From Blepharisma japonicum (Eukaryota > Ciliophora > Heterotrichea > Heterotrichida > Blepharismidae): a DNA stretch of 64,000 bases. Made by a program: the position numbers and the translations under genes. Below the pieces are notes generated by a model that worked only from the letters and a program-made list of their open reading frames with translations, was not told the origin of the DNA and ran no database searches. The stretch spans positions 142,101 through 206,100 of the forward strand of contig CATKHK010000081.1 of NCBI GenBank assembly GCA_949751835.1. The letters run 5' to 3'. This document shows, piece by piece, positions 8,335 through 64,000 of this stretch. Every line of letters starts with the position of its first letter. The stretch's first letter is position 1.

Positions 8335-8387
8335 TTATTCACTCAATTCCGATTAATAATGATTTATTTCTTATTAAAATATTCAAA

Positions 8388-10562: not shown

Positions 10563-12275
10563 TTAATCTTCTCCTTTTGACTTAGGAGCACTCTGGTCCA
10601 TAAACTTTTGTAAGAATGACTTAAATCCTTTCCCGATCGAAGCATAAACCTCAACTGAAGGAGCCACAGTTTTTTCTTTGTCGTATTTAACAAGCTCATC
10701 AACATAATCACTATTAGTTTCTAAGCTATATAAGTCGGCGTTCATAAACTTCTTGTGAGTCATTCCTCCAAATACCAATACTTTTGTTCCATAAGTGCAC
10801 ATGCAGTGGCCTCATCTGCCTTCAGGTGCATTTCCATTGACTATAACGCTCTCCCAGGTAAGATGCTCTACATTAAAAATATGCAGGTCTCCTAAGCTAG
10901 ATTCGCCTGTTTCTTTGTACAATAAATCATTTCTCCCTCCAAAAATAAATAATTTTTCATTCATAGAGCATGCTGAGTGGCTATAACGCGGAGTTGGGAG
11001 TTTTCCAAAGGATTGGACTTCTGTTCAAACTAACTGACCATCACGCACATAAAGTCCATGAAGCGCATTTGTTGGGGTTCCTGTGCCATCTAGCCCTCCA
11101 AATAAATAAAAGCCGCTGTTCAATATATGTAATTCTTGCTTCATTTTCGATAAGCTCATCAAAATAAAGTCAAAATTCGCTTTCAATGCTTCATTGAAAA
11201 CTGCTGTGAACGTAGCATGAGACCGAGGCCCAGGATCTCCATAGACTTTTACTTCAGGAAGAGACCATTCTTTATCTTTTACATCGTAAATATATAGATC
11301 AGGCAATGCATGGGAAAGCTGGTCAACCCCTCCATAAACCAGCATGCTTTTTCCTAGCAAAGTGCAAGAGTGGTTTCTTCGCGGAGTAGGATTGGCTCCT
11401 CCTCCATGATATCGTTGTCAGTTCATGGTGTCTAGGCTTAAAACATACAATTTGTTTGAGCATCTTCTGATTCCTAAGTTCTGGCTATGTCCAGAACATC
11501 CACCAAAAGAAATAATTTTTCGCTTATATACAGCTAATGAGCATCCAAGTCTTCCGTTTGGAGAGTAATTTGAGTTTACCCTTCTTCATACTCCAGTTAT
11601 CATATCTAGCTCATGTAAGTCAGTGATTTTGCCTCTGGACTGTCCACCAAAAATATATATTTTTCTATTTATCACAAATAGTGAGCTTCCTTCACTTGAG
11701 TTTGGTTTTGATCCCATTGTCGCCTTTAGGCTTCAATGAACGATTTCCTCTTTTCTTTTTTTAAATTCATTTGTCTCATTCTCTTTAGCAGCTTGTTCAT
11801 CACTCAAAGCCATAGATCGCTTAGAGTTATTCTGAGGAAGAAAAAGAGATTGAATATTTCCCCTAGCAGCGAATTTATCTCCAAGCTGGTCTTGCAAGAT
11901 TTTAGTAATTGAGGCTGGTTTTTGACTGGACGATGGTAAAGAATTTCTTGTTTCCAAAGACCTAATCCACTGAAGGTTCTGCAAGCGATTAATATTTTCA
12001 TCAAATGTAGGACTTACAACTTTCCCTTGATCATTTAACGTTGATTTAAAATCATTTAGAAGTTCACGGGTTGGGCTTGTTTTTCCTGAAATTGAAGTAA
12101 AAGAGGGTTTTTGTGAATGGGGGTGAGGGGATTGTACAGGAGAAATTGGGACTCTAATTCTGAACTCTTTGCGAGATGTCACAAGAAGTTGCGTTTCTGG
12201 AGATGGTGTATATCGAACTAATCTGAATGGAACAACATCTCCTCCTTTCTTTTTTCTAAGAAGCGTTCTGTCCAT
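10563..12275 (-). CDS. kelch-repeat protein
   Basis: One 570-residue frame that reads through several TGA codons; with the standard code it falls into at least three pieces. Residues 1-180 are a basic, Ser/Pro-rich, probably disordered region. From about residue 185 to 510 there is a kelch propeller with at least five blades, visible as FGGQSRG, SFGGCSG, VYGGVDQ, LFGGLDG, FGGRNDL and VFGGMTH, each with downstream Trp and Tyr/Leu positions. The tail (about 60 residues) is charged. Kelch propellers are protein-binding platforms; no BTB, F-box or RING domain is present to specify a role. It ends about 150 bp from the converging membrane-protein gene. Confidence 0.88.
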
Positions 12276-21829: not shown

Positions 21830-24634
21830 ATGGGGTCACAGCAATCGATTTTTTCAGCTGTTGCAACACTTGTCATAGGCTCAGCAAACGAAAATGAATT
21901 AAAGAAAATTTTTGATGAAGGAAGGCTAAAAGATCTTAAAAATCCTCCAAACCTTGATGAGGCTAAAAAATTGAGAGAAAAATACTCAGTAGCTGATTTA
22001 GAAGCTGACAATAAAAAGCCGAAGGCATATAGTATATGATCTACTTCTCCAGAAAACCTTGGGAAATATGGAGTTGGGCTTGAGCTGTATTTTCTCTTTT
22101 TAAAGCAAATGGCTATTTTATTTTTCATTGTTGCCTGTATAAGTATTTATCCAGCCTACACTAACTCAAAAGGAACTTGAATTTTAGATGATGAAAGCCA
22201 AAATGGTTCAAGATTTACTTTGGCTAATCCATACTGACTAAAAAAAAGCGATAGATGCATTTTTGAAATGTGTGAAGGAACTATTACTGAAGAAAGGAAG
22301 CACGAGATACAGGATGATATTAATAAAAACTATAAAGAAACTTGAATTGTTGATGCTGCTTATACATGTATATTTTTGATTGGATTAGTTATAATTTTGA
22401 TTGTTAATAAAATAAAAATCAATCACAATACGTTAGGAAATGATAGAGTAGCAGACTATTCAATTGAAGTTGGAGGATTTCCTAATAAAACTATAGACAT
22501 ATTTGATGTGTTTAATCATTTTAAAGGCTTCGGAAACATAGTCGAAATTTACTTAGGCCGCTCGTATGGTGACCTTTTGTATTTCTATCGAGAAAAAGCA
22601 GAAGTTTCAAAGGAAATTAAAATTCATCAAATATTTTTAGATGCTGAAGTAAACAATAAAAAACTAAAAAAACTCAAAAAAAAACTAAAAAAGCTAAATA
22701 AAAATATCAAAAATTCAAGTTTTAACAAACTTAATCATGAACTTCCTGTGAACAGAGCTTATATCATTTTCCAATCTCAAGAAGATAGAGCAAGAGCCAT
22801 CACAAAATACAGAAAAAGATGTTGCCTTTGAAAAAATAACGATCCAAGCTTAAAGTTTCAAGGAGAATATCAATTAAAAGTTTACTCAAGCACTGAGCCG
22901 TCTGATATTATTTGGGAAAATTTGCAAATAGCTCATTGAGAAAAAGTTTTAAGAATTATTTCCTCAGTTATTATAGTTGTTATTTTAATGAGTATTTCAG
23001 TTGGGCTAATTTTTTTAATGAAAAGAGGGAGCCAAGATACATATGACGCCTATCGATGCATGAATGACCATAAAGAAAATGACATGCGTAAGCCTTTAAG
23101 CGATGTATTATCAAATTCAACAGATTGAGACTCAGATAGTGCTGAAATGCAATGCTGGTGCAGCCAACAGCCAGCATCAGATTGAGCACAAAAACCTCAA
23201 ATCAGATCAATATGCATGGACTATGTCATGAAAAAACTGTCCTCTGCTGCTATTAATTTTTTCATATGTTGTGGGATCGTGATTATCAATTATTCTTTGA
23301 GGCAGCTATTTACTATGCTATCTGAGTTTGAAAGACGTAAGAGCTATAATATAAAGCAGACTCATTTGATGTTAAAAATATTTGCAGCAATGCTAATAAA
23401 TACTGCTCTAGTTCCAATTATAATTCATTTACCATATCATAATAAGGATGATGAATTGATTGATCGGTATTTTAATGATATTACAAAGTACTGGTATGTA
23501 AAAGTAGGATCTATGTTCTATATTATGATGTGCATTAATGTAGTTTCTCCTCATTTAATTTTTAACTTTTTGGTCATGTATATGACAGGTTTATATAAAA
23601 GGTTTCGTAGCTATCTGGTTTACAAGACTCAGTATGAAATCAATAATGCTTTTATAGGCCCTGAATTCAGACTTGCTACAAGGACTTCTATGATTTTGAC
23701 AGTGATTTTTACGTGTTTTATTTTCTCTGGAGGTATCCCTCTACTGAATATAATTGCATTTTTAGCATTATTTGTGATATATTGGACTGATAAATTTTTA
23801 ATTCTCAGGCACTATAGAAAGCCCCCATACTATAGTCATCATGTATACAGCAGTGCCATAAAAGCTATGCCCCTGTGTGTTTTCTTTCACGCTTGCTTTT
23901 CTCTTTATGCCTATGGATGTGATGATGTTTTTCCACAGAACTTGGTATTAATAGATTTTAATGGAAATGGTTACTATGCTAATTTTAATTCTCAGAGCTT
24001 AAAGAAGAGAATCGCTATGGATCATGGGATTATGTTTTTTATTTTAATTATTATAAGCTTGGTTTTATTTTTTTTGTTTTATTTTTCAGAAAGGATAACA
24101 AAAGAATGCAAAAGAATTTTGCTTTTACAAGGTTATAAAGAAACCAAAAAATTTTCTAGCGCAAAAGAAAATATTGAAAAATATGCGCTTACAAGCTATG
24201 ATTTAGAGCAAAACCCAAATTACTCTTTTTTAATTAATGAAATGAACAAAGATGTAAAAGATGGAAAATTTGGCTGAAAAAGAACAAAAACAGCTAATAA
24301 ATTGACAGTGATAAATGAACGAGGGATTATAACTTCATCATGGTCTGATGAGCTTCAATATCTAAATCAGGATGGCAATCACAACAAGGTAAATGATGAT
24401 CGTCATGTAAGACTTAGCAAATCTTTGCCTAACATCGCATCAGAATATGCAGAGCATGGCAGTGTTCATCAGTCTAAAGCAAAATCAACAGATTTAAATA
24501 GAGATGATCTCTTTTATTGAGATGAAAAAAATGTTTCAAGTACAATTCCTGAAGGAAAAACGCCAGAAGTATCAAACGAAGAAGGCTCACAATCTATTCT
24601 AGTTGGCATTTCCAACAGATCGTACAGTGAATAA
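21830..24634 (+). CDS. TMEM63/OSCA (CSC1)-type channel protein, copy 1
   Basis: 934 residues, no intron, many TGA-Trp codons. Layout fits the CSC1/OSCA/TMEM63 family of osmo- and mechanosensitive cation channels: a first helix near residue 90, a second near 180, a cytosolic RRM-like segment (IEVGGFPNK then FGNIVEIYLGRSYGDLLY), a Lys-rich hairpin and INRAYIIF-like strand, then about eight more helices including SPHLIFNFLVMYM and the conserved FSGGIPLLNIIAF. A Cys-rich extracytosolic loop (MQCWCSQQ) precedes the second helix group. The C-terminal 170 residues are polar and disordered. The next gene is its paralog. Confidence 0.82.
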
Positions 24635-25200: not shown

Positions 25201-28029
25201 ATGGGATCTCAGCAAAGCGCTTTTGCAGTGATTGCAAACCTTGTATTAGGTACAAATGAAAACGAAAACCAAAAAATTGACATTGAGAGGCTAAAAGAGC
25301 TTAAACATCCTGCAGATCTAGAAGAAGCAAAACGATTTAGACTTAATAACTCAATTGTTGATAAAGAAACTGGAAAACTATATAATGTTTGATCAACTTC
25401 TCCAGAAAACTTTGGGAAATATGGAGTTGGGCTAGAGCTTTACTTTTTATTCCTGAAACAGATGATAATTTTATTTTGCATTATTGCAGGTTTAAGTATC
25501 ATTCTAATGGTTATTAATTCTGATGGTGAATTCATTAGAGACGATGAAAGTCAAAATGGCTCAAGGTACAGCTTAGCAAATTCTTGGAGTTATGATCAGG
25601 ATCTCTTAGATTTATACATTAAAAATGATAGCAAGTCAGAGAGCCACACTGTAATAATGAATGAAACGGATATTAACCACATTTTAGAGAGAACTGAAGA
25701 ACAGTATAAATGGGTGTGGATTACTGATGCAGTCATCACAAGTATATTTTTATTAGGATTAGTTATAATCCTAATTGTAAATAAAATAAAAATCCATAAC
25801 AATGAATTAGGAAATGATCGAGTTTCCCAGTATTCTATAGAGGTTGAAGGACTTCCAAAAGAAAATATAATGGAAGATGAGGTGAAAAATCATTTTGAGC
25901 GTTTCGGGGAAATCCATGAAACTTTTTTAGTCAGGTCATATGGAGATCTTTTATACTTCTTCAAAGAAAAAGACGAGGTAAAACAAGAAATCAGGGCAAG
26001 GAAAATTATTTTGGGTATTTCATCGAGCATATACACAGATGATCGTAAAATAGAAAAACTTCGTCAAAAGAAAACAAAAATAAATGAGCGCATTAACTCC
26101 TTAAATTTTAGGAAATCACACTATGAGTTTGATATATATAAAGCATATATTATTTTTGAAAGAAAAGAAGCAAAAGCAAAAGCATTATGAGAATATCGAA
26201 AAAACATTTTTGGATCTTTATCAAATAAAGACCCAGAATTAAAATTCAAAAATGAATTCCAGCTAAAAGTTCGCTCTTGCACTGAGCCTTCAGATATTAT
26301 GTGGGAAAATTTGGAAATAAATCACATTGAGAAAAAGTCAAGAAAATTTTTTTCTATCACAATAACCTTGATTTTTATGGCATTATCAGTAGGGTTGATA
26401 TTTTTAATGAGAAGAAAAAAATTGATTGATTATGACTCTTATGGCTGCATCCATATGAATGTTGATTATGACCGAAAAATTTGGGAAGTAAAGCAGGATA
26501 AAACGATGACACCTGAAATGGTTTTATGTTGGTGCAGAGAGAGATCAACTGATGATTGATTTAATCCAGCAATATATAATGAATGCAAAAAATATGCATT
26601 GAAAAGACTATCAGCAGGAGTTGTAAATTTCTTTATATGTGCTGGGATTGTTATTGTGAATTATTCACTTAGACTACTATTAACTACTTTAAGTGAATTT
26701 GAAAGACATAAGAGCTTTAATATAAAGCAAACTCATACATTGCTGAAAATATTTTTTGCAATGCTTTTTAATACCGTTTTAGTCCCAATTTTAACACATA
26801 TAGACTGAAGCGGTCAAAATATTGGTACTGAAGTAACCGATCAGCAGTTTGGCGACTTCGAAAAGTTATGATATGTCAAGGTCGGCTCTATTTTTAGTAT
26901 TATGATGTGCATAAATGTAGTTTCTCCTCACTTAATTTTCAATTTTCTGATCCTTTACATGAAAGGCCTCTATTATCGCACAAAAGGCTATGTAAAATTT
27001 AAAACACAGTATGAAATAAACAATGCATTTCTTGGGCCAATTTTTGTGCTATCTACAAGAACTTCAATGATTTTAACAGTCCTCTTTACTTGCTTTATTT
27101 TTTCTGGAGGTATTCCTCTATTGAATATCATTGCATTGTCAGCTTTATTCACAATATACTGAACTGATAAATTTTTAATTCTTCGGCATTATAGAAAACC
27201 ACCGCACTATAGTTATCATGTATACAGTTGAACTATTAGATTGATGCCTCTGTGCGTGTTGCTTCATTGCTGCATTTCTCTATATGCCTATGGGTGTCCA
27301 GATGTTTTCCCAACTGGATTTGTAAATAATAATTATTTTGATCCTTTAGAAATGAGTATAGAAGATAGGATAGAAATGGATCATGGAAAAGTATTTTTAA
27401 TTCTGATAATTATAAGCTTTATTATGCTTATTTTATTGTTTATATTCCCAGATAAAATAACAAAAGAATTTGAAATCAGATGGATATTTGAAGCTGATAA
27501 TTCAAAACCTTTTACAGAAGCAAAGGAAATTCTTGATAAATATGGGCTAACAAGTTACAATTTGGATAAAAATCCTAATTATAAGCCTCTGATTGAATCA
27601 ATGGATAAATATCAAGAAAAAGGGAACGAATCAAATGAGTTACCATCATTTCATAGTTTTGATAATCTAATTCATAACAATAATGAAAGTTTTGAAGGCA
27701 AAGAGTTTCATAATAGTCTGCAAAGCATCAGTATGGAACCTCCAATTAAAATTTATTGTTCAGATGACTCTCCTTTGCATGATAGCAGCGATTTGACTGA
27801 TGCTGGGCTTTCATATTTTTATGACCACGAAAAAAATATTGAACTAGATAAGCCAACTCCGGCAAATTTGCTGGAAATTTCAGTAGTTTTCGGAGAAATA
27901 TCATCTATGCCTAATACTTTTCGCTTAGAAGATACCACAGCGCGCTCTCGAAATGAGCCCCAAATTGAAGAAAAAATCCCAGATCAGCCGCCTACTTCCA
28001 TTTTCAATCAGTCAAGGCAAACCATTTAA
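25201..28029 (+). CDS. TMEM63/OSCA (CSC1)-type channel protein, copy 2
   Basis: 942 residues, no intron, TGA-Trp throughout. It is collinear with the preceding gene from the MGSQQS start, through STSPENFGKYGVGLELYFLF, the RRM-like segment (IEVEGLPKEN, FGEIHETFLVRSYGDLLYF), the CWC loop and SPHLIFNFLILYM, to FSGGIPLLNIIAL and a DHGKVFLILIII helix. The two proteins differ most in the cytosolic hairpin, the extracytosolic loop and the tail, which here is longer and acidic. The pair is an old tandem duplication; a pore role is inferred from the family. Confidence 0.82.
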
Positions 28030-32942: not shown

Positions 32943-34001
32943 TTAAACTAATGGATAGCTTGGCTGCATTTGGATTCCGCAGACTCCGTCTCCATCTATA
33001 ACAGCGATTCTAATGTACCCAGCCTCTCCCCATTGTGCTCCCCATGAATTTTTGACTTTCCAATATGGAGGGCTATTATTCATATTATACCCTACCACTA
33101 GCACTCCATGATCCAAAGCATTTCCACAATTTTCTGTAATAACTCCAGTTGAGTAAAATTGCCAAGCAGTCTGGTCAGCTTCTACAGCAACACTTACAGG
33201 CTGATGAGAAACAGCTGCTTGAAGTGCATTAATATTATTTGGAGTAACATCAGCAAATGAAGTAATTCGAGCAGCAGGGATTTTCGTTTTGTCTTTACTA
33301 CATCTTCCGTCGCGACCTGTGTATGGATAGCTGTCTTCTGCTGAAATTCCATTATCTATAATGTATTTAAAAGCGTTGTCCATAAGACCACCATTACAGC
33401 CTAAATTCCCATATGAAGATGAGCAGTCTACAAGCTCTTGCTCAGAAAAAGGGGTTATAGGGTGTCCAGCTATAAACCAAGCCCCTTCTACAGAGCCTGT
33501 AGTTGAAAATGCCCAACAGCTTCCACATTGTCCTTGGTTTTTTACATAAGTAACTGCGCCACCAACAGTCCAGTCCACTTGTGCAGGAATTTCTGCATCT
33601 ATTTTATGGTTTTGTATGTTTAGACTAGTTTTATTTGGAATTTTTGTAGGAGTATATATACTTTTAAATTCGGATGGTGTCATGTCAGCAAACTCATTTA
33701 ATTTGAGTGTCCAGCTATGGCTTTGAGAATTAAAATTGCGGATAAAAACAGAATTTTCTTTGTAAATTTTAAATCGGGATTGATATTCTAGTTCACCTGA
33801 ATAAATTTTGTTTCATTTGGAAAGGTAATCTTGGAACTCATGCTCTTCAATTTGATACTGAGATGATTTGCAAGTACTTTGAGAACTGTTTAGGATTGAT
33901 ATTGTAGCTATTATACCTATGATGGCAAAAATGCTGAAAACTGATAGTAAAATTTTTTTAGATTGCTTTGGAGAAGAATCTAGTTGGCGGAATCCGTCCA
34001 T
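32943..34001 (-). CDS. cathepsin L-like cysteine protease, membrane-anchored
   Basis: 352 residues with a TGA-Trp at 33813-33815. A basic cytosolic start and a hydrophobic segment (about residues 17-37) form a signal anchor. The propeptide follows with the ERFNIN-like helix ending FRIYKENS-type (here RFKIYKENSVFIRNF) and NEFADMTPSEF. The mature domain starts near VDWTVGGAVTYVKNQG. The catalytic set is complete: Gln and Cys in QGQCGSCWAFS, His in LDHGVLVVGY and Asn in VKNSWG. It is expected to be an active endolysosomal or food-vacuole protease. A decayed copy lies at 38265-39064. Confidence 0.94.
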
Positions 34002-41756: not shown

Positions 41757-42024
41757 CTTGCTAAGTAAAATTGGCATTTTGGCAGCGAAAAATTTTTAAA
41801 GATAATTAAAACTGTGGGGCTTTATATAAAAGTTTAAATTTTAAGGTTTTTTAATTTACCAGATTAAATTAATATAGAGGTATTTTTATACAGAATAAGT
41901 TTATGCAAAGAACTAATAATAAATGTTTTAGCTAAAGAAAAGCATTAATTATAGTAGCAATCAATATTTGAAATTAAAATTTCAATAAAAAATGATAAGC
42001 ATTTTAGTTATATAAGCATATGTA

Positions 42025-42090
42025 GATCCATTAGTTAAAGGAAGCGGCAAAGCAGTTTACATGCATGCAATAGGTTTACCTTTAGTTTTT
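42025..42090 (-). pseudogene. short relic of WD40-TRP gene
   Basis: Resembles 43515-43580 within the adjacent channel gene (ATCCATTA, GGAAGC, GGTTTACCTT in the same order), with changes. A fragment only. Confidence 0.6.
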
Positions 42091-42104
42091 TTTTGCACTG
42101 ACTG

Positions 42105-42340
42105 TAAAAGATAAATGGGAAAATTACAGATTTAATGCTATTCTAGGTATAGAAATTGTGCCAGATCGCCAATTATTGATGAAGTCTAATTAAATTAAAT
42201 TTAATTATATGCTTGGCATTTAACTGGCATTTACAGCTATATGTTTTTACTGACTTATATTATACATTTTCAGTGTTAATATTTTGGATTTCGAGTGCAC
42301 AATTGTGCATCTATATCTGGAATAGTTATGAGCAAAAATA
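42105..42340 (-). repeat. about 230-bp dispersed noncoding repeat
   Basis: On the minus strand it matches 59125-59350 closely (shared AAAACATATAGCTGTAAATG and ATATAATTAAATTTAATTTA). Related copies lie at 48040-48245, 53090-53335 and 57620-57870. It sits 3' of the channel gene. Confidence 0.75.
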
Positions 42341-42406: not shown

Positions 42407-45400
42407 TTATTCTAATTCTTCCCCACTTTCTTCTCCACTTTCTTCTCCACTTTCTTCATCACTTTCTTCATCAGAATCCTCTTCATCTTGTTTCTCTGCT
42501 TTCTTGTCTCCTTCTAACTTAGTCCATATCTTCTTCAGCATTTCTTCCATATTGTCAAACCTTTTGTTGTTCTGCAATTGAAATCTCCTTACATCTTTCT
42601 TGATAGTTGACACTCTGGTGTCAATATTTTTTTCTATTTCTTCAGATTCTTCACTCTTAAGTACTTGGAAATAAGATCTGTCTATACACTTTTTCTTCCA
42701 AAACATCAATGTTTCTATTTCACTGATCATTCCTAGTAATTCTTTTCTGTCTGCAATTTCTGCGTTTTCTTGAACTCTTCCAAAAGTGTCGCCCATGATT
42801 GAGATCAAGAGGTTTAGCATAATAATCATATTGATCATAGTAGCCAAGAACAAGCAGACCCATTGAGTTGAAGTAAAGCCAGTGGAGTCAAAATCTCCAA
42901 GGTCGAGTCTATATGAGAGTTTAATATAGTCGATTAGTTTAGGATCATTTTTATCCATAACTAAAAAGATAAATGCGAAAGCAAGAGTCGAGTAGAAGAG
43001 GAGGATAAGGAAAGATGTGATATCTTTTATTACTTGAGTAATCAGATTAATCATGTATCTCGTATTTTTAAAGACTCTGAAATAGGTGATTCCTCTCATT
43101 CACGAAACTACAACAAGTCCTACTAAAATATCGTAGCTAAGATCAGAGTGCTCGTTTTCTACCCAATTAAGAGATACATAGACTATAGTTAATATAGTTC
43201 TAATCGCATCAATATAATTCCAGACATCCTCTATATACTCCGAAGGTGATGTGATAAACTGGAATACTTCATAAGAAGACAGCAGTAAGCTGAAAATAAA
43301 AATAACCACCAAAGATAGCGATTGGCCTATAAAGTATAGTAAATAAACTGAAAGCAAAACCATATAGATTGTATATATGATTGCTTGCCAGTACATAGCC
43401 CATTTAAGATCTTCCCACTTATGATCTAATATATCTTGTATAAGCTTTGTCGTGAAAATAGCGGAATTAGGGCATTCTTCAAGGCTGTCTAAGAATTTTG
43501 TGCTTGCCTCAGATCCATTAATTAATGGAAGCCGCAAAGATGTTATCATGCATTCAACAGGTTTACCTTCAGACTTTTTTTGATCTTTCTGTAAGAAATT
43601 TGATTCTAATGGGTAAATTTCATTTGAGTGATAATAGATTGGGGTTTGCAATGACTCACCAACAAACTTAGCAAATTTCCCTTTATAAGGGGTGTAGATT
43701 AGCTTGTAAAACTTGGTTAAGGATGGATAGCCAAGCATATTAAGACCGATAATGCAGTCTTCTGATATGAAATTAAGGGCATTAGGATTTTCTTTTAAGA
43801 GCTTTCCAAAAGAAGACACAACTGCACTTACACAGCCTGATAACTGTTTTTTAATCGCAAAAGATAGAGCGTTTCCACCAAATTTGGTATTGAATAGTGA
43901 GCCTCCTTCATCAAGTGCTAATTTTAGCTGATTTGGATGGTTATAGTAAGAATAAAGGTGAAGAGTATTGATTCTATGCGGCATAATAATTCATTTGTCA
44001 TTCTCTGGCTTATGCTGCTTCCCTTTATAATTTATGAGGTCCATGACATATTTCATATAAGAAAACTCGCTGCCAGGTCCGGCAGCAATTGTAACCTCAG
44101 TTGCTAGAGGGTTTTTCTTAATAAATATATTATCAAGATAGCTTACCACTTCTTCATCTTCATCTTCATCTTCATCTTCATCTTCTTCTTCTTCTTCTTT
44201 TTCTTCTTTTTCTTCTTTTTCTTCTTTTTCTTGTTTTTCTTCTTCTTCTTCTTCTTTTTCTTCTTTTTCTTCTTCTTGTTCTTCTTCTTGTTCTTCTTTT
44301 TCTTCTTTTTCTTTTTTTTCTTCTTCTTTTTCTTCATTGTTTTCTTTTTCCTCATCTCCACTCTCTTCTTTTTCCTTATTTGGCTTTTGTTTTTTCTCGC
44401 TTTTATCTATCGCTGCCTTCTTTTTGTTTATTCTATATACTAAGTATTCTTCATCAGCTGTTAACAGAAAATAGATTATTTCCTGCTTGATATCATAATG
44501 AAATAGCTGATTATATGTATCAAGACTCCAAAATGAGATTTTTCCTTCATTGGTTACAACAATCATGTTTTTTTGATCTTCTACTATATGAATTTTATTC
44601 AAGGTTCCTCCAGCCTTTAATGTTGCTAATAATAATTGTACTTCCCAATTATATATAAATATTGAGCCATTATTACTACCAATTACAATGTTTTTTTCCT
44701 CTTGAAAAGTGCTTAATGCTGCTATTCTTTGATTTTTTTCTCCTTTAAGTGAAACCTTAAATTCCCCAGTAGAAATATCCCAGAAGTAAACAACCCCATT
44801 ACCATTTCCAGCAACAATAACATCGGAAGCTGGCAAGAAAATAATTTTTAAAATATATGAATCGCTTCCTTTGAATTCTTTGACTTTTTCCATGGTTTTC
44901 ACGTCCCATAAGAACACTTTTTGATCATACCCACCAGTTGCATAATATTTTTTATCAGGACTGACTGTTTGTGTTAAAATATAATCTGAGTTGTCATTTT
45001 CAAGAGGAATTTCAATATTTTCTTTGGTTATTAAGTTGTACTTTACTATCTCATACTCATTATGGAATATTATGGTATTCTCGTCGATGACTCTGTAATT
45101 CCCTACTCTGTAATCCTCTATTGGAGTTACCTCTTCAAACTTGTTAGTGGCCAAATCCCACTTTTTAAATGCGCCTTCATCATTACTTTTAATAAGCAAA
45201 TTATGTCCTGATGGAAAAATTTCGAAATCAGTTGCTTGTGCAGATAATTCTTTCGTGAACTCAGGAAAATTCAATGAGCAGAATTTCCCGTCAGGCCCAT
45301 TAGTGTATATAACTTTTCCATCAGTGGAAAGCTTCACAAAAACAATGACATTATTATGGACTTGAACTTCTGAGATTTGTTCCTTATTTTTAATATTCCA

Positions 45401-46309
45401 AAACTTAAGCTTTCCTTTTACATCTCCTGCAATTATAGTCTTTTCATCATTCGCTATTGCAATTGAGTGAATGTTTGTCTCCATTTTGAAAACTTTGAAG
45501 ACTTCCAAAGGGTTCACATTAACAATAACTGCAATTCCGTCAGAAGCTGCTATGATTTTGGATTGGCTAGGGGAGAACTCCAGATAGCGGATGATATTAA
45601 TGTCGATGTTCACTTCTTTTTTGCTTGAAGTTTGTAAATTCCTTAACATCAATTTACCATTGTTTGAACAAGTTGCAAACTCTCCAATTCTTGATAAAGC
45701 CATTTCATGAAAATTCCCTTTGAGGATATCTTCTCTTTCTTGAAAATTTTCAGGGTTGACTTTTACAATTTTTTCCCCGCTTAATAGGACATATAAAGAA
45801 TTTTGATCATACGACTGAATCATTTTTGAGATTTCGTTATAGAACTCGAAGGTTTTTTCTCTGACTGGTAAAAGTGAAGGAAGCTTAACTTCATAAAGAG
45901 ATGTTTCGCTAGCGAATACTGCTTTTTGCTCTCCTTTTAGAACGGCAATGCTAGTTAACACTTCACTGATTTTCTTCTCTTCAAACTTTTTGGTCTTCAT
46001 GTCAATATAAAGGGCACTCCCTTCATAGGTAGCAGCAAGGTAATGGGTGTCATCTGAAAGCTTTACCCAATTAGAGATTCTGTAAGGCATGTGGACTTCT
46101 GAAGGTAGAAGACTGCTGAAAGTATTTGAAATATTAGTTATGGCCTTATGCATTGACTCAAACATTGTTTCCTCATTACCAACTTTAATTGGGATAGGAT
46201 TGATTTGGTTAGCTTTGGAATCTTTGTTTGATATCATCGAAAGAAGAGCAGCTTTTTCCAATGATTTGACGTCGCCTAGAAGAGGTTTAGATAACTGAGT
46301 ATTATCCAT
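42407..46309 (-). CDS. WD40-TRP fusion: WD40-like propellers, acidic linker and TRP-like channel, copy A
   Basis: 1300 residues, rebuilt by reading TGA as Trp at 43991-43993 and 43100-43102. Residues ~75-620 are WD40-like beta-propeller repeats (KLKFWNIKNKE, KVFLWDVKTMEK, VVYFWDISTGE, KISFWSLDTYN). A very acidic Glu/Lys tract (~635-735) follows, then an ankyrin-like helical stretch and six hydrophobic helices (~970-1190). The channel part has WNYIDAIRT (S3-like), SWMRGITYFRVFKNTR (S4/S5 linker) and LNLLISIMGDTFGRVQ (S6), best matching TRPV/TRPA-type cation channels. The C-tail is a coiled coil ending in acidic repeats. A calcium-permeable channel with a propeller sensor domain is inferred. 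Two plus-strand paralogs are in the window. Confidence 0.85.
44150..44400 (-). repeat. simple-sequence acidic tract inside channel gene
   Basis: About 250 bp of GAA/GAG/AAA-type codons on the minus strand, translating to Glu/Lys with a final Asp-Glu run. It stays open in more than one frame on both strands, which explains the shadow ORFs there. Paralog B has only a short version. Confidence 0.9.
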
Positions 46310-46880: not shown

Positions 46881-47200
46881 TTTTGTTAAGAATATTAGAT
46901 TGAAAACTCTTTACTAAATTACGATTGAATTTACGCATAAGCTTGAATCACGGTGACAAATCAGAATTAGCAATTAAATGTATCGAAAAAATTGTAGATG
47001 AAGCCACTTTTGTAACATTGCATCAGCGTTGTTTGCTTCACGATAACCCAAGAGGTAGTAATAAATGACTCTCTATATATCTATAGCTAAATAAAGTATG
47101 AAAAAGAATTTAGCTTAAATTTCACATCATAATAATAACACATTTTCTTTGACTGGGAAAAGTGAAGAATATTGCTTTTTTCTTCATCTTTTGAAATGGC
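46881..47200 (-). repeat. inverted copy of 61270-61560
   Basis: Reverse complement matches the plus strand at 61270-61560 over about 290 bp (for example CTTGAATCA...AATTAGCAATTAAATG). No gene recognised in it. Confidence 0.7.
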
Positions 47201-47545
47201 AGCATAGCTTTCTTCTGATCATATTTTTGCGTTCTAGTGCCGATATGAAAAGCAAGCCCTTTCCAGGCACTAGACAGATAATGGATTTAATCTGAAAGCT
47301 TTGCTGTATTGAAGGACCTGCAAGGCACGCTGACTTCCGAAGGTAGAAGACAATTAAAAACAGCTGAATGTTAATAGGGCATCTTTCACTGGATCCAGCA
47401 GTGCTCTATCATTACTAACTTGGATAGTGACAGGACTAATTTGATTAGACTTAAATTCTTTGTCTACAGTGATAGAGCATCTTTTTCCAATGGCTCCACA
47501 TCGCTTAGAAGAGGTTTAGATAACTGAAAATTATCGATTTATTTT
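47150..47545 (-). pseudogene. relic of WD40-TRP gene, 5' part
   Basis: On the minus strand it begins like the intact genes (ATGG near 47540, then AGTTATCTAAACCTCTTC) and runs through the first ~120 codons with frameshifts and missing bases. It is most like the relic at 60833-61300. Confidence 0.85.
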
Positions 47546-48249: not shown

Positions 48250-48445
48250 GACATTTTCCTATAAAGTGTAGTAAATAAACTGAAAGCCAAGCCATATAGA
48301 TTGTATATATGATTGCTTGCCAATACATAGCCCATTTAAGATCTTCCACTTATGATCTAATATATCTTGTATAAGTTTAGTGGTAAAAATAGCGGAATTT
48401 GGAGATTCTTCAAGACTGTCTAAGAAATCAGTGCTTGCTTTACAA
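48250..48445 (-). pseudogene. relic of WD40-TRP channel segment
   Basis: Nearly identical to the S1 region of the intact genes (43330-43510, 56480-56640), for example TATATGATTGCTTGCCA and CCATTTAAGATCTTCC, but one base short and cut off on both sides. Confidence 0.88.
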
Positions 48446-52151: not shown

Positions 52152-53000
52152 ATGATGAAGAGTGCAAAAGTTGTCAATGAAGTTTATCAGTCCCAAAGGC
52201 CACCAAGATCAGCAAGAACTCCTATAAAGCAAGGTATTCAAACCCCTGAAAAAATAAGGATGAATCGAAGTGGAAACATTGAACTCGAAAAAAATCAAGG
52301 TGCAGGAGTGCAGATAAGAAGGGTCAAGCCAAAAACGTTATATAAATCTAGAAGCTTGGAGCATTCAAAATCTTTTACAACGATAGATGACTTAAAAGAG
52401 ATCACAACCGAATATTCCGAGCAGGTTAAAAGGCTCCAGATAATTTTGTCTAAAATAGAATACAAGCTGAAAAGAAAAGGGCTTGATCTATGGAAAAACG
52501 AGCTTGAAAGAGTAAATCAAAGGAGTAATTGGCACTATAACACAGTTTTATTATGTTCATTATTCAATTTATGGAAGGAAAATATAGCCAAAAAGAAATA
52601 TATGGAAATCAATACGGAATTGATTGAGATACTCAAAAAATTTAAAGAAGCTTTGACAAGTGAAAAAGAGATAGAAGAAAGCGATAGTTTGGAAACCAGT
52701 TTAGATGAAAAATCATGAAAGACAGAAATAGCCAATGAAAAATATAAAAGTTGACTAATGAAAAAGTCTATGCATGGGCTGCTTGATTTTTATATTTTTT
52801 CAGTTACACAAGAAAACACATTGGATGAATACTACAAGCAAAAATTAGCAAAAAAAGCTTTTAATGCTTGGGAAAATAGCTCCTATAGCACAGATCCATA
52901 CGAAAATGTAGTTGAAGCTTTTAAACTTGTAATGTTTATATAGAATACTCTAGGTTTTAAAGTTTTCAGTGCTTGGAAAGCTTTGAAAAATTATAATTAA
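52152..53000 (+). CDS. Sfi1-like protein (putative centrin-binding repeats)
   Basis: Exons 52152-52928 and 52944-53000, joined across a 15-nt intron, give 277 residues with two TGA-Trp codons. The first 100 residues are basic and disordered. Further on, helical segments end in the Sfi1 signature L-x-x-F/A-x-x-W: LLCSLFNLWKEN, KKAFNAWENS and GFKVFSAWKALKN. In Sfi1 such helices bind centrin at basal bodies and in contractile fibres. Only three repeats are seen, so the family call is moderate. Its 3' half is copied as relics at eight or more places in the window, next to channel gene copies. Confidence 0.65.
52929..52943 (+). other. 15-nt intron
   Basis: GTAATGTTTATATAG; phase 0; removal of the in-frame TAG adds the last Sfi1-like repeat. 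The intron is also visible in several relics. Confidence 0.88.
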
Positions 53001-53089
53001 TACTACGATAGCAAATTAAAAATATATTATCAGCGTTATCCCTTTTAAGTTCTTATCAGTTTAATATGTAAACTAAATTTTATGAGATA

Positions 53090-53859: not shown

Positions 53860-56800
53860 ATGGATAATACTCAGTTATCTAAACCTCTCCTAGGCGACGT
53901 CAAATCAATGAAAAAAGCTGCTCTTCTCTCAATGATAGTTGACGAAGAGTCCAAGCTTCATCAAATCAATCCTTTCTTCGTTCAAGTTGGCAATGAGAAA
54001 GCAGAGCTTGATTCAATGAGAGAAGCCATCCTTAATATTTCAGTTGTTTTCGACAGTCTTCTACCCTCAGAAATCAACGTGACTTACGCAATCACGAGCA
54101 TGGTAAAGCTTTCAGATAACACCCATTATCTTGCTTGCACCTTTGAAGGGCTTGCCCTTTATATTAACATAAAGACCAAAACATTTGATGAGAAGAAAAT
54201 TGGTGATTATCTAAGCGGTGTTGCAGTTCTAAAAGGAGAACAAAAAGCAATATTCTATGGCCAGACCACTCTTTATGAAGTTAATCTCCCTTCACTTTTA
54301 CCAGTCAAAGAAAAAACCTCCAATCTTGGCTTTATCCAAAAATTAATTCAGTCTTACGATCAAAATTCTTTATATGTCATATTAAATCATCAAATTTTAA
54401 AAGTCAACCCTGAAAATTTCGAAGAAAGAGAAGGCATTCTTGAAGGAAATTTTATTCAAATGGCTTTATCAAAAACTGGTGAGATTGTAACTTTGTCAAG
54501 CGATGGCAAATTGGCATTGACGAATTTACAAACTTCGAGCAAACAAGAAGTGCAAGCCAATATTGATAATAATATCACCACAATGAATTTCTCTCCTAAC
54601 GAATCCAAAATTATAGCAGCTTCTTCGAGAACTGTAGTTATCATCAATGTAACTCCTTTGGAAGTGTCCAAAGTTTTCAAAATGAAAGAAGATATTTTTT
54701 CGCCTTTGATAGCGAATGATGAAAACACTCTAATATTCGGAAATAGCAATGGAAAGCTTATGTTCTGGGACATTAAAAACAAGGAGCAAATCTCGGAATT
54801 CCAAGTCCATAGTTTAAAAATTTGGGTTGTAAAACTTTCCTCTGATGGGAAGTCTATATATTCTGCTGGGTTGGACGGAAAAATATGTTCTTTGAACTTT
54901 CCTGATTTCACTAAAGATTTATCGACCAAAGTAATTGATTTCGATATTTCTCCATCAGAAAGCAAATTGATTGTCAGACGTAGCAATGAAAACATTTCGA
55001 TATGGGATTTGGTCAATAACAAATTTGAAAGTATAGATACAATTGACGGGCTCTATATAAGAGGTTACGATCTCGTTGAAGAGAGTACCATAATTTTCTT
55101 AAGCTATAATAGCATAATAAAGTATAACGCAAAAACCAAAGAAAAATCCTTCATTTATCTTAAAGATGACGACGCTGACGAAATTTATGCATGTGCACTC
55201 AGCCCTAATAAGGAAAACTATGCAACTGGGGGGTGGTCTCAAAAAGTGTTCTTATGGGATATAAAAACCATGAAAAAGGTCAAAGAATTCAAAGGAAGTG
55301 ATTGGTATATAAGCAGAATAGCTTTCTTGCAATCTTCCAATGTAATTGTTGCTGGAAACCAGATTGGGTCTGTTTATTTTTGGAATATTTCTACTGGTGA
55401 ATATATAATTCAACCTATTAAACTTAAAGGAGATCAAAACCAAGCAATAATATCATTAAATGCTTTTCAAAAGGAAGAAAATGTGATAATTGGCTGTCAA
55501 AATGGCTCAATATTCATATATAATTGGCGGGCTCAATCTTTTCTAGCGACATTTAAGGCTGGAGGGGAAATCAAAGGTGTTGACATTGTAAAAGATGAAA
55601 AAAGCATGATTATTGCAACTAAAGAAGGTAAAATTACTTTTTGGAGCCTTAAAACATATAACCAGCTATTTTATTATGATATTAAGCAGGAGATAGTCAT
55701 TTTTCATCTAACAGCTGATGAAAAATACTTAGCCTATAAAATAAATAAAAAGGAAGAAAAAGACAAAAAAGAAGGTGAAAAAGGAGAAGAAGAAAAATGA
55801 GAAAAAGTGGATTATGACGCTGATAATCTGATTATTAAGAAAAATCCTCTTAAAACAAATGTTGTAATTGCTGCTGGGCCTGGCAACGAATCTTCTTATA
55901 TGAAATATGTCATGGACCTCATATATAGTAAAGGGAAGCAACATGAGCCAGAAAACGACAAATGGATTATTATGCCATATAGAATCAATACTCTTCACCT
56001 TTATTCTTATTTTAACCATCCAAATCAGCTAAAATTAGCGCTTAATGCTGGAGGTTCAATATACGATACCAATTTTGGTGGAAATGCTTTATCCTTAGCT
56101 ATTAAAAAAAAGTTTTCAGGCTGTGTAAACGCAATTGTGTCCTCTTTTGGAAAACTCTTAAAAGAAAATCCTAATGCCCTTAATTTCGTATCCCAAGATT
56201 GCATTATTGGGCTTAATAAGCTCGGCTATCCTTCTTTAACAGAGTTTTATAAGCTAATATATTCCCCTTATAAAGGAAAATTTATCAAATTTGTTAACTG
56301 GTCATTGCCAACTCCAATTTATTACCACTCAAAAGAAATTTACCCATTAGAATCAAATTTCTTATTGACAAAACAAGACTATCCTGATATTAAACCTGTT
56401 ACATGCATGTTAACTTCTTTGCCGCTTCCTTTAACTAATGGGTCTAAAGCAAGCACTGATTTCTTAGACAGTCTTGAAGAATCTCCGAATTCCGATATTT
56501 TTACGACTAAACTTATACAAGATATATTAGATCATAAGTGGGAAGATCTTAAATGGGCTATGTATTGGCAAGCAATCATATATACAATCTATATGGTTTT
56601 GCTTTCAGTTTATCTCCTATACTTTATAGGTCAATCGCTACCTTTGGTAATTATTTTTATTTTCAGCTTACTGCTGTCTTCTTATGAAGTATTCCAGTTT
56701 ATCACATCACCTTCGGAGTATCTAGAGGATATCTGGAATTATATTGATGCGATTAGAACTATATTAATTATAGTCTATGTATCTCTTAATTGGGCAGAAA

Positions 56801-57552
56801 ACGAGCACTCTGATCTTAGCTACGATATTTTAGTAGGACTTGTCGTAGTTTCGTGAATGAGAGGAATCACCTATTTCAGAGTCTTTAAAAATACGAGATA
56901 CATGGTAAATCTGATTACTCAAGTAATAAAAGATATCACATCTTTTCTTATCCTTCTTTTATACTCGACTATTGCTTTTGCATTTATATTCTTAGCTATG
57001 GATAGAAATGATCCTAAACTAATCGATTATATTAAACTCTCATATAGACTAGACCTCGGCGATTTTGACTCCTCAGGCTTTAATTCAACCCAATGGGCAT
57101 GCTTATTCTTGGCTACTATGATTAATATGATTGTCATGCTAAATCTCTTGATCTCAATCATGGGTGACACTTTTGGAAGAGTTCAAGAAAACGCAGAAAT
57201 TGCAGACAGAAAAGAATTACTAGGAATGATCAGTGAAATAGAAACATTGATGTTTTGGAAGAAAACTTTCAATGAAAGGTCTTATTTCCAAGCACTTATT
57301 GGTGAAGAATCTGAAGAAACAGAAAAAAATATAAACACCAGAGTCGCAATTATGAAGAAAAACATAAAAATATTCCACTTGCAGTATATGAAAAAATTTG
57401 AAACTCTTGAAGAAATGATTAAGAAGATATGGACTAAGTTAGAAGAAGATAAGAAAGCAGATAAAGAAGAAGATAAGCACTCTAATAAGGGCTCTAAAGA
57501 ACAAAGTGGGGAAAAAAGCGAAGAAAAAAGTGGGGAAGAAGAAGAAGAGTAA
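53860..57552 (+). CDS. WD40-TRP fusion channel protein, copy B
   Basis: 1230 residues, TGA-Trp at 55798-55800 and 56854-56856, no intron. The same design as copy A: start MDNTQLSKPLLGDVKS, WD40-like repeats (KLMFWDIKNKE, KVFLWDIKTMKK, SVYFWNISTGE), linker, helical region PYRINTLHLYSYFNHPNQL, S1-S6 with WNYIDAIRT and LNLLISIMGDTFGRVQ, and an acidic coiled-coil tail. The acidic linker is only about 25 residues, against about 100 in copy A. Channel helices are far better conserved between copies than the propeller. It is the least similar of the three copies, while A and C share wording such as ENFQEREDIL and SRIGEFAT. Confidence 0.85.
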
Positions 57553-58479: not shown

Positions 58480-58725
58480 ATGGATAATTTTCAAATATCT
58501 AAACCTCTTCTAGGCAATGTGAAATCATTTATAAATTCAGTTCAAAAGCTACATCTATAGCCAAATAAAGTATGAAAAAAGAATTTACCTCAAATTTCAC
58601 ATCATAATAATAACACATTTTCTTTGATTGGGAGAAGTGAAGGAAGCCTAACTTCATGAAGAGTTATTCTGCCAGAGAATATTACTTTTTGTTCACCTTT
58701 TAAAATAACAACATAATTTAGCTTT
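58480..58725. pseudogene. rearranged relic of WD40-TRP 5' region
   Basis: 58480-58530 (+) reads ATGGATAATTTTCAAATATC, the channel start. At about 58531 it switches to a reverse-complement copy of 61195-61370, so two fragments are joined head to head. Confidence 0.8.
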
Positions 58726-58734
58726 TCACTAAAG

Positions 58735-58855
58735 GAAATTTCGGAACAAAGGGGACTATAGCACAGTTTTATTATATCCATTATTCAGTTTATGTAAGGA
58801 AAATATATTAATAAATAAATATGCGGAAGTCAATACAGAATTTATGAGATTAGGA
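58735..58855 (+). pseudogene. relic of the Sfi1-like gene (middle)
   Basis: Parallel to 52525-52640 (shared CACAGTTTTATTAT and AATACGGAATT-like words) with stops. Confidence 0.75.
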
Positions 58856-59124: not shown

Positions 59125-59350
59125 TGATATAGATATATAATTGTGTAAAAATTTTTATGCGAAATCCAAAATATAAATAATGAAAATGCGTAATGTAATC
59201 AGTAAAAACATATAGCTGTAAATGCCAGTTCAAATGCCAAACATATAATTAAATTTAATTTAATTAGATTTCACCAATAGTTGGTGATCTGGCAAAATTT
59301 TAATACCTAAAATAGCATTAAATCTGTAATTTCCCATTTATCTTTTTCTC
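59125..59350 (+). repeat. about 230-bp dispersed noncoding repeat
   Basis: Closest to the inverted copy at 42105-42340; abuts the RPS18 fragment. Confidence 0.75.
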
Positions 59351-59364
59351 TCGCGTGAAAAATT

Positions 59365-59605
59365 ATTGTAAAATCTTTATTTTTGAGAAATCAACTACTA
59401 AGCAATAGTTGGAAGCCAGTTTTGATAAAAATTGTGAAAGAAATAGCCAAACGAGAAATATAAAGTTGGTTAATGAAAAATTCTATAAATGTGCTTTTAA
59501 TTTTATATTTTTTCAGTTACTCAAGAAAACACATTGGATGAATACAACAACAAAAAACCTGCAAGACAAAATTTTATTCTTGGGAAAATCAAAATTTTTA
59601 ATTAA
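59365..59605 (+). pseudogene. relic of the Sfi1-like gene (middle to 3')
   Basis: Parallel to 52685-52875 (TTTCAGTTACTCAAGAAAAC, ACATTGGATGAATAC) with frameshifts. Confidence 0.8.
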
Positions 59606-60832: not shown

Positions 60833-61300
60833 ATGGATAATTCTCAGTTATCTAAACCTCTTCTAAGCGATGTGAAATCATTGGAAAAAGATGCTCTTCC
60901 CTCTATCACTGTAGACAAAGAATTAAAGCCTAACCAAATTAGGCCTGCCACTATCCAAGTTAGTAATGATAAAGCACAGCTGGATCCAATGAAAATGCCC
61001 TAATTAATATTTCAGCTGTTTTTAATTGTCTTCTACCTTCAGAAGTTAGCGTACTTTGCCGGGTCCTTAATATAGCAAAGCTTTCAGATGAAATCTATTA
61101 TCTATCTAGCACCTGCGAAGGGCTTGCTCTTTATATCGACACTAGAACGCAAAAATTTGATGAGAAGAAAATTAGTGACAAGCTAAATTATGCTGTCATT
61201 TAAAAATTGAACAAAATGCAATATTCTCTGGCAGAACAGCTCTTCATGAAGTTAGGCTTCCTTCACTTCTCCCAGTCAAAGAAAATGTGTTATTATTATG
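60833..61300 (+). pseudogene. relic of WD40-TRP gene, 5' part
   Basis: Begins MDNSQLSKPLLSDVKSLEKD and follows the intact N-terminus to LPSLLPVKEN, with a one-base loss near 60995 and a TAA at 61200. After 61290 it runs into unrelated sequence. Confidence 0.9.
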
Positions 61301-61561
61301 ATTTGAAATTTGAGATAAATTCTTTTTCCACACTTTATTTGGCTATAGATGTAGCTTTTGAAGTGAATTTAGAGAGTCATTTGATGCTACCTTTTGGGGT
61401 AATAGTGAAGCAAATGATTATGATACAATGTTCGAAAAGTGGCTTTGTCTACAATTTTTTGGATGCATTTAATTGCTAATTCAGATTATGACCATGATTC
61501 AAGCTCATGCATAGATTTCAATTATAATTTAATAAAGAGTTTTCAATCTAATATTCTTAAG

Positions 61562-61945
61562 CATAAATCAAAGGAGTAATTGGAACTATAACACAGTTTT
61601 ATTATGCTCATTATTCAGTTTATGAAAGAAAAATATAACCAAAAAATAAGTATGTAGATATCAATACAAAATTATTGAGATACTTCAAATATTTAAAGTA
61701 GCTTCGACAAGTGAAAAGGAGATGATGAAAGCGATAGCATTGAAACCAGTCTAGATGAAAAATCGTGAAATATAGAAATTGTCAGCGATAAATATAAAGC
61801 TGGCTAATGAAAAAGTCTATGCATGGGCTGTTGATTTTTATATTTTCAGTTAAGCCTATAGCACAGATCCATACGAAAATTTAGTCAAAGCTTTTAAAGT
61901 TTTTAGTGTTTGGAAAACTTTGAAAAATGATATTTAATACAAAAA
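61562..61945 (+). pseudogene. relic of the Sfi1-like gene
   Basis: Parallel to 52517-53000 (AGGAGTAATTGG, TTAATGAAAAAGTCTATGCA) with stops, an internal deletion of the second repeat and no intact intron. It lies directly before channel copy C. Confidence 0.88.
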
Positions 61946-62034: not shown

Positions 62035-64000
62035 ATGGATAATACTCAGTTATCTAAACCTCTTCTAGGTGACGTCAAATCATTGGAAAAAGCTGCTCCT
62101 CTCTCGATGATAGTAGACAAAGAGTTCAAAGCTAACCAAATCAATCCTACCTCAATTCAAGTTAGCAGTGAGAAAGCACAGCTTGATCCAATGTGAGATA
62201 TCTTAATTAATATTTCAGTTGTTTTCAACAGTCGTCTACCTTCAGAAGTCAACGTGCCTTACAGAATTCTTAATATGGCAAAGCTTTCAGATGAAATCCA
62301 TTACCTTGCGAGTACTTATGAAGGGCTTGCCCTTTATATCGACATGAAAACCAAAAAGTTTGAAAAGAAGAAAATCGATGATGTGTTAGCCTACATTGCC
62401 GTTTTAAAAGGAGAACAAAAAGCAATATTCTCTGGCAAAACAACTCTTTATGAAGTTAAGCTTCCTTCACTTTTACCAGTCAAAGAAAAAACCTTCGATT
62501 TCGGTATCGAGATCCCAAAAATGATTCTGTCCTATGATCAAAATTCTTTATATGTCCTATTAAAAGAGCAAAAAATTGTAAAAGTTAATTCTGAAAATTT
62601 TCAAGAAAGAGAAGATATCCTCGAAGGTAATTTTGCTCAAATGGCTTTATCAAGAATTGGAGAGTTTGCAACTTTTTCAAACGATGGGAAGTTGACGTTA
62701 ACGAATCCACAAACTTCAAGCCAAGAAGAAGTGCATATCGACATTGATAACATTAGATATCTGGAGTTCTCCCCTAGCCAATCCAAAATCATAGCAGCTT
62801 CTTCAAGAACTGTAGCTATTGTCAATGTGAGTCCTTTGGAAGTCTTCAAAGTTTTCAAAATGAAAGAAGACATTTATTCGCCTGTGATAGCGAATGATGA
62901 AAATACTCTAATATGAGGAGATGATAATGGAAAGCTTACCTTTTGGGACATTAAAAATAAGGAACAAATCTCAGAAGTTCAAGTCCATGATAAAACTATT
63001 CATTTTGTGAAGCTTTCCACTGATGGAAAATTGATATACACTAATGGGATTGACGGGAAATTCTGCTCATTGAAATTTCCTGAGTTCACGAAAGAATTAT
63101 CGACAAAAGTAAGTGATTTCGAAATTTCTCCATCAGGAAGTAATTTGCTTATTAAATGTAATGATGAAAGCACATTTAAAAAGTGAGATTTGGCCACTAA
63201 CAAGTTTAAAGAGGTAGCTTCAATAGAAAATTACTATATAGAGAATTACGATGTCATCGACGAGAATACCATAATATTCCTAGATTATGAAAATATAGTA
63301 AAGTACAACTTAATAAGTAAAGAAAGTATTGAAATTCCTCTTGTAGATGACGACGCAGATTATATTTTTTCCCGCACAGTTAGTCCTGATAAAAAATATT
63401 ATGCAACTGGTGGGTTTTCTCAAAAAGTGTTCTTATGGGACGTGAAAACCATGAAAAAGGTCAAAGAATTCAAAGGAAGCGATACATATATTTCAAAAAT
63501 TATTTTCTTGCCATCTTCCAATATTATTGTTGCTGGAAATGATAATGGGACTGTTTACTTCTGGAGTATTTCTACTGGTGAATTTGTGATTTCACCTCTT
63601 AAAGGAGAAATAGACCAAAAAATAAAAGCATTAAGCACTTTTCAAAATGAAGAAAACGTGGTGATTGGCAGTGAGAATGGCTCAATATTTGTATATAATT
63701 GGAGAGCAAAAACATTATTAGCCACATTGAAGGCTGGAGGGAAAATAAATAGAATTCATATAGTAAAAGATGAAAAAAGCATGATTGTTGCAACCAATGA
63801 AGGAAAAATCTCATTTTGGAGTCTTATTACATATAGTCAGCTATTTCATTATGATATCAAGCAGGAAATAATCTATTTTCAGTTAACAGCTGATGAAAAA
63901 TACTTAGCATATACAATAAACAAAACGGAAGAAAAAGATGAAAGCGAGACAAAAGGAGAGCAAAATAAGGAAAAAGAAGAGAGCGGAAATGAGGAAAAAG
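62035..64000 (+). CDS. WD40-TRP fusion channel protein, copy C (3' end beyond window)
   Basis: 655 codons are visible from the ATG at 62035, reading TGA as Trp near 62193, 62914 and 63184. The start MDNTQLSKPLLGDVKSLEKA and the WD40-like repeats (KLTFWDIKNKE, KVFLWDVKTMKK, TVYFWSISTGE, KISFWSLITYS) follow copies A and B. The window ends in the acidic linker (TEEKDESETKGEQNKEKEES), so the channel half is not seen. The open frame over nearly 2 kb, in a region full of relics, suggests a living gene. It is closer to copy A than to B. Confidence 0.85.

Follow-up and report, generated by a model that had tools for sequence, protein, structure and literature searches.

The locus described here raises the question of whether a WD40-like propeller and a TRP-like cation channel are joined in one protein, and what such a protein would do in a ciliate. 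It lies in a window of 64,000 nucleotides from Blepharisma japonicum (contig CATKHK010000081.1, positions 142,101 to 206,100), the window being the whole stretch of DNA that was analyzed. Three copies of the gene, herein called A, B, and C, are found in it. In copies A and B, the fusion of WD40 and channel is real.

Copy A is a complete fusion gene on the forward strand (53860..57552) and encodes 1230 amino acids. From the ATG at 53860 to the TAA at 57552, it forms one single frame of 1230 codons with TGA read as tryptophan, the in-frame TGA codons being W647 and W999; the coordinates given by the original prediction are thereby confirmed. Such a code with TGA as tryptophan is described for Blepharisma stoltei in passages of PMC9942806. 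When it is applied to the window, numerous long frames open up that belong to ordinary genes of eukaryotes, and the window accordingly reads as ciliate nuclear DNA. The N-terminal 69 residues of copy A (53860..54066) are of low confidence in the AlphaFold2 model. They are followed by two β-propellers predicted by AlphaFold2 and Pfam, the first comprising residues 70–346 (54067..54897) and the second residues 358–629 (54931..55746). An acidic, lysine-rich linker (55756..55827) leads to the pre-S1 stretch (55828..56559) and from there to the TRP-like channel, with hydrophobic blocks at residues 901–1108 (56560..57183). Herein, the filter-like motif LGDFD, assigned by alignment to PKD2L1, occupies residues 1066–1070 (57055..57069). 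The gene closes with a C-terminal tail that is acidic at its end (57184..57552, including the stop codon).

Copy B is a second complete fusion gene, oriented on the reverse strand (42407..46309), and encodes 1300 amino acids, again in a single frame with TGA read as tryptophan. Its linker is longer than that of copy A by about 70 amino acids, in frame. This linker (44149-44397, reverse strand) contains internal direct repeats of about 130–140 bases, which may account for the extra residues. Of copy C, only the propeller half is present (62035..64000, forward strand); it leaves the window within the linker, and a channel half would lie beyond. In the propeller half, B and C are separated by two gaps only, of 3 bases each. 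At least five fragments of the fusion gene are located among the three copies, most of them with stops or frame breaks. Broken copies of the 5′ end are found on the forward strand at 60833..61310 (frame breaks and one stop) and on the reverse strand at 47164..47538 (several stops and gaps). A fragment of the S1 region (48251..48444, one frame break), a short fragment of the pre-S1 region (42024..42110, with a stop), and a fragment with similarity to the family (58593..58745) lie on the reverse strand, and a start fragment of 16 residues (58480-58527) is oriented opposite to the last of these. The first 16 residues (53860-53907 in copy A) do not differ between A, B, and C, and three broken fragments have a similar start; these residues are better kept than the sequence that follows and are still legible in broken copies. 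They possibly represent a targeting signal or a conserved DNA element. The flanks of A and B are also repeated in the array with about 75–91% identity (52538-53003, 61589-61895, 59160-59346, and 59409-59587), which indicates that whole segments were duplicated.

Elsewhere, the window contains ordinary eukaryotic genes, among them two for papain-family proteases (5317-6522, forward; 32943-34001, reverse), one for a Kelch-repeat protein (10563-12275, reverse), and one for a protein kinase (8310-9482, forward). Two adjoining frames on the forward strand (21830-24634 and 25201-28029) are 53% identical to each other and show weak PHM7_cyt matches of 27.4 and 22.9 bits at a cut-off of 27. This domain presumably links them to channels of the OSCA/TMEM63 type, which they possibly are. 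The pair forms another tandem family within the window, and its products are likely membrane proteins.

The propeller half is recognized by the Pfam family WD40 (PF00400) with 49.9 bits in A and 51.7 bits in B (cut-off 27). Residues 1–640 of copy A were modeled by AlphaFold2 with B and C as relatives, and the best of five models reached a pLDDT of 72.9, the remaining four ranging from 54.0 to 41.0. The best model contains 54 predicted strands, 28 in the first set and 26 in the second. The lettering of the strands and the closure of the propellers are the analyst's reading, with the WD positions as markers. On this reading, the first propeller would have seven blades, provided that a d strand at residues 70–73 closes the ring, and the second about seven, its closure being only partly modeled. 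Hence, the N-terminal half is predicted to form two propellers of about seven blades each. The roughly 550 WD40-like residues that had been proposed from the sequence correspond to these two predicted propellers, which span about 560 residues (70–629). A Foldseek search with the propeller half returned 1984 fold matches at an E value of 0.001 or better. Among the best 50 of these, the whole-chain TM scores (normalized to the query) are 0.35–0.43, probably because of a differing angle between the two propellers; proteins of the SSU processome, Apaf-1, and proteins of the axonemal doublet are found among them. An identity of the propeller with EML was set aside as unspecific. The Pfam family EML_2 scores over its cut-off of 90 in copy A (92.7) and under it in B (82.8) and C (86.8), the family of the first EML propeller stays under its cut-off in all three copies, so that one of six EML scores overall is over, and several unrelated propeller families score equal to or above EML. 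No HELP motif occurs among the best 25 Pfam matches of each copy (13 to 22 further matches each). Likewise, no NACHT domain occurs among the best 25 of 38 Pfam families in A and the best 25 of 43 in B, and the start of the propellers at residue 70 leaves no room for one. In viral contigs, no relatives of alignment A2 were found; in genome contigs, the same alignment matched at least two loci of bacteria that encode WD40 repeats, with 22% identity. Both were dropped as controls, one being by eye P-loop NTPase-like plus WD40 and the frame of the other ending inside the match. A frame of 1076 amino acids in a planctomycete metagenome-assembled genome (L002:1528-4758) combines by eye a P-loop NTPase with WD40, an NLR-like bacterial layout.

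The channel half scores over the cut-off of 25 bits for the Pfam family Ion_trans (PF00520), with 31.5 bits in A, 30.7 bits in B, and 36.5 bits when the channel part is searched alone. Against the PDB, the channel half of A gives 39 listed matches at an E value of up to 1, and 38 of these are named TRP or PKD. The odd one is 9nvn, named 'Inactive', which we take to be an insect TRPV subunit. The best match is the TRPM2 chanzyme (E 2.7e-10), and with a profile of the channel halves of A and B, all 21 matches at an E value of up to 0.01 are TRP channels. These affinities support a membership of the channel half in the TRP superfamily. When the pore part is aligned with PKD2L1, LGDFD is identical in the aligned stretch. 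In PKD2L1, this motif is presumably the selectivity filter, and its acidic residues are taken to bear on Ca2+; the match is the sole hint on ions that the sequence offers. Six helices had been predicted for the pore. In copy A, hydropathy gives five blocks (901–950, 958–976, 990–1009, 1015–1049, and 1076–1108), and six helices are plausible since the first block could hold two; in copy B, only four blocks are seen, the block of the third helix (S3) being under the cut-off. The predicted order of propeller, acidic linker, helical stretch, and six-helix TRP-like channel is supported for A and B. The label "ankyrin-like", assigned by eye to the helical stretch, was not confirmed: for ankyrin repeats, which mark the N termini of TRPV and TRPA, Pfam gives only Ank_2 with an E value of 0.17 in A and Ank_5 with 0.11 in B, both below the cut-off, and the stretch is modeled as helices with a pLDDT under 50. 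Membership in the polycystins (PKD2) was rejected. PKD_channel (PF08016) scores 11 bits at a cut-off of 22.4, and S1 and S2 merge in block 901–950, which leaves almost no S1–S2 loop by hydropathy, so that a polycystin domain cannot fit. An AlphaFold2 model of the channel half of A, with B as sole relative, reached a pLDDT of 35.7; it was unusable and left out of the fold searches. No relatives of the channel half of A were found in viral contigs, and none of alignment A3 in viral or genome contigs. By hydropathy at a single cut-off, copy A is free of membrane helices up to residue 900, and copy B shows one marginal hydrophobic stretch (252–270) at the same cut-off. The N termini of known TRP channels are cytosolic. 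Together with the N terminus of A being devoid of a membrane helix, this suggests a cytosolic position of the propellers.

The two halves of the protein evolve differently. Divergence was determined by region with the Nei–Gojobori method and by pairwise maximum likelihood on eight region pairs, the latter giving p values uncorrected for the number of fits. By pairwise maximum likelihood, ω between A and B is 0.60 in the WD40 half (p 1.6e-4 versus 1) and 0.28 in the channel half (p 5e-14); within the latter it is 0.15 in the membrane part with the pore and 0.29 in the pre-S1 stretch, both below 1. Hence, the pore is strongly constrained between A and B, whereas the propellers are not, which is new. 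Between B and C—the closest pair by synonymous change—ω in the WD40 half is 1.42 (p 0.048 versus 1); taken alone, the first propeller gives 1.18 (p 0.51) and the second gives 1.71 (p 0.056). The original prediction contained neither a fast-evolving top face nor a conserved pore.

Within the propellers, loops d–a and b–c are counted as top loops and loops a–b and c–d as bottom loops; the top face comprises the top loops plus strand a. The classes follow from DSSP on the model of copy A, one model of five, with strand letters taken from the WD positions, and the split into top and bottom was fixed before the paper on HET-D/HET-E discussed below was consulted. Between B and C, amino acids differ at 48 of 112 positions in top loops, 22 of 123 in bottom loops, and 65 of 310 in strands. 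In 5000 permutations, neither the gap between top and bottom loops nor that between top loops and strands was ever reached, and bottom loops and strands are alike (p 0.52). The same order is seen between A and B (65/112, 35/123, and 117/310). When the top-loop map is shifted circularly, the observed value is reached by 0 of 559 shifts for B/C, 2 for A/B, and 7 for A/C; the excess is weaker in A/C and in the second propeller. At blade positions that were picked after seeing the data, the residues flanking the first residue of strand a vary between B and C in 8/14 and 9/14 blades and the residue between them in 3/14, and the first two residues past strand b vary in 8/13 and 7/13. Synonymous changes between B and C are likewise more frequent in the top loops than in the other two classes. 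By eye, the blades inside one propeller are not near-identical. For these three copies, an excess of differences on the propeller top face is thus firmly established.

Whether this excess reflects positive selection depends on the model. When all classes share their branch lengths in a three-sequence codon model, ω along the branches to B and C is 2.16 for the top face (p 1.1e-4), 2.45 for the top loops (p 3.8e-5), and 0.84 for the scaffold. When each class is fitted with its own branch length and κ is fixed, these values become 1.72 for the top face (p 0.057), 1.89 for the top loops (p 0.096), and 0.95, or near neutral, for the scaffold. Nonsynonymous and synonymous counts of face and scaffold are alike between B and C (96:20 versus 78:24, Fisher p 0.31) and differ between A and B (p 0.026) and A and C (p 0.012). 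Positive selection on the top face is thus suggested, with a p value of 1e-4 or 0.057 according to the model. Because the B/C scaffold is near neutral as well, constraint may alternatively have been relaxed after duplication.

Top-face divergence combined with a kept pore suggests a channel family in which different partners control the individual copies. The reading that we tentatively prefer, at a probability somewhat short of even, is a multigene family of cation channels that are gated by partners and whose recognition surfaces diversify. Herein, the twin N-terminal WD40 propellers would act as a cytosolic recognition module, and a partner would bind to their top face. The linker and the pre-S1 stretch would relay this binding to the six-helix TRP/polycystin-like pore, which would assemble as a tetramer. 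The pore with its LGDFD filter would then open, or be held in place, and admit cations, probably including Ca2+. By keeping one pore across copies and varying the recognition face, a single output could be coupled to different partners. The propeller sensor, the calcium channel, and the novel gating of the original prediction are putative in this sense, and a role in ciliary or contractile responses is hypothetical.

One objection would be that two separate genes, or an artefact, were merged by reading TGA as tryptophan. The standard code would indeed stop copy A after codon 646, which is the end of the WD40 half. However, the linker of copy B is devoid of TGA, and the first TGA of B, at codon 773, faces a TGG in A (codon 702). 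In copy C, codon 384 is TGA where A (codon 382) and B (codon 384) have TGG for the tryptophan of the WD motif, and A999 and B1070 are TGA in both copies. This correspondence of TGA and TGG at aligned tryptophans in A, B, and C supports the code inside the gene family itself. TGA codons also occur in 11 of 12 other long frames that were checked, frames listed under this code in the first place, and the fusion occurs twice, on opposite strands. A merging of separate genes is therefore very improbable. The claim that WD40 and channel are joined in one protein holds for A and B, which are single frames with Pfam WD40 and Ion_trans matches over the cut-offs; its extension to all three copies does not include C, since the window ends before any channel half of that copy. 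A further explanation accepts the fusion and regards the propellers of a young tandem family as drifting after duplication, with loops changing first and the pattern carrying no recognition information. The near-neutral B/C scaffold, the similar B/C counts for face and scaffold, and the several copies in the window that are already broken speak for it. Against it, B and C remain open with two in-frame gaps in the propeller half, and no stop occurs among their about 219 propeller differences where about nine would be expected without selection, although both copies were picked as open frames. Moreover, ω of the WD40 half is significantly below 1 between A and B, and loop status alone is insufficient as an explanation, since the bottom loops of B and C differ no more than the strands. 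Pure drift is hence rather unlikely.

As the main alternative, the propellers may be an anchor instead of a gate and tether the TRP-like channel to the cytoskeleton of cilia or cortex. In Chlamydomonas, where channel and WD40 are separate proteins, deflagellation signaling fails when the TRP channel ADF1/TRP15 or the EML-like WD40 protein FAP16 is mutated, and FAP16 may dock TRP15 according to a proposal of the authors in passages of PMC5068960; passages of PMC7093003 speak for the anchor as well. Chains of axonemal doublet microtubules rank 8, 17, 19, and 23 among the best 50 fold matches, together with four more, and EML_2 is over its cut-off in copy A. However, EML_2 is under the cut-off in B and C, unrelated propellers score equally or better, and propellers of the SSU processome match the fold at least equally well. 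A fused dock would make sense, yet an anchor should conserve its binding face and not vary most on it. We regard the anchor as somewhat unlikely. A narrower version of the partner-gated family goes further and is doubtful: the proteins would be cytosolic recognition receptors in a unicellular eukaryote that wire a diversifying WD40 surface, akin to that of fungal non-self recognition, directly to an ion channel, and cation influx would follow from recognition within one protein. If true, a single molecule would here be the counterpart of immune receptors whose signal is an entry of Ca2+. TRP channels are known with ankyrin, melastatin, or enzyme domains at their ends. To these, the twin propellers would add a modular input for the binding of partners, and if the copies share a pore and differ in binding face, they would offer a natural series for testing partner control of TRP-type channels and possibly a means of recognition in ciliates.

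Compared with the known members of the TRP superfamily—TRPM, TRPV, and PKD2L1—the fusion protein shares the Ion_trans channel, the sequence matches to TRP and PKD, and the LGDFD motif of PKD2L1. It differs by the twin WD40 propellers at its N terminus and by the lack of a clear ankyrin domain; from polycystins, it differs by the merged S1 and S2, which are too tight for a polycystin domain. We know of no TRP N terminus with twin WD40 propellers. A description of a WD40–TRP fusion was not found in titles, beginnings of abstracts, and passages of the papers listed from the open-licence literature, passages of PMC10946202 and PMC7935092 contain nothing on this architecture, and for Oxytricha nuclear proteins, TRPV-type, ion transport, and WD40 families are counted apart in passages of PMC9958989. 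As judged from these papers, the fusion may be a new addition to TRP-type channels, and automatically annotated members in other ciliates are likely. The pair of ADF1/TRP15 and FAP16 resembles it in that a TRP channel and a WD40 protein serve the same Ca2+ response, albeit as two proteins (passages of PMC5068960). In the ciliate, channel and propeller are fused, and the propeller is not clearly EML-like as FAP16 is. The closest parallel on the propeller side is given by the fungal NACHT-WD40 (NWD) proteins HET-D and HET-E, which, according to passages of PMC1805685, likewise contain a WD40 propeller and belong to a multigene family with pseudogenes. Their positively selected codons are paired around a conserved residue in the d–a loop and the b–c turn on the top of the propeller, and the places agree with those at which change is concentrated in copies B and C. 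Unlike in the fungal system, the blades of the ciliate protein are not near-identical, positive selection is only suggested, and the output is a TRP-like channel where HET-D and HET-E employ NACHT plus HET.
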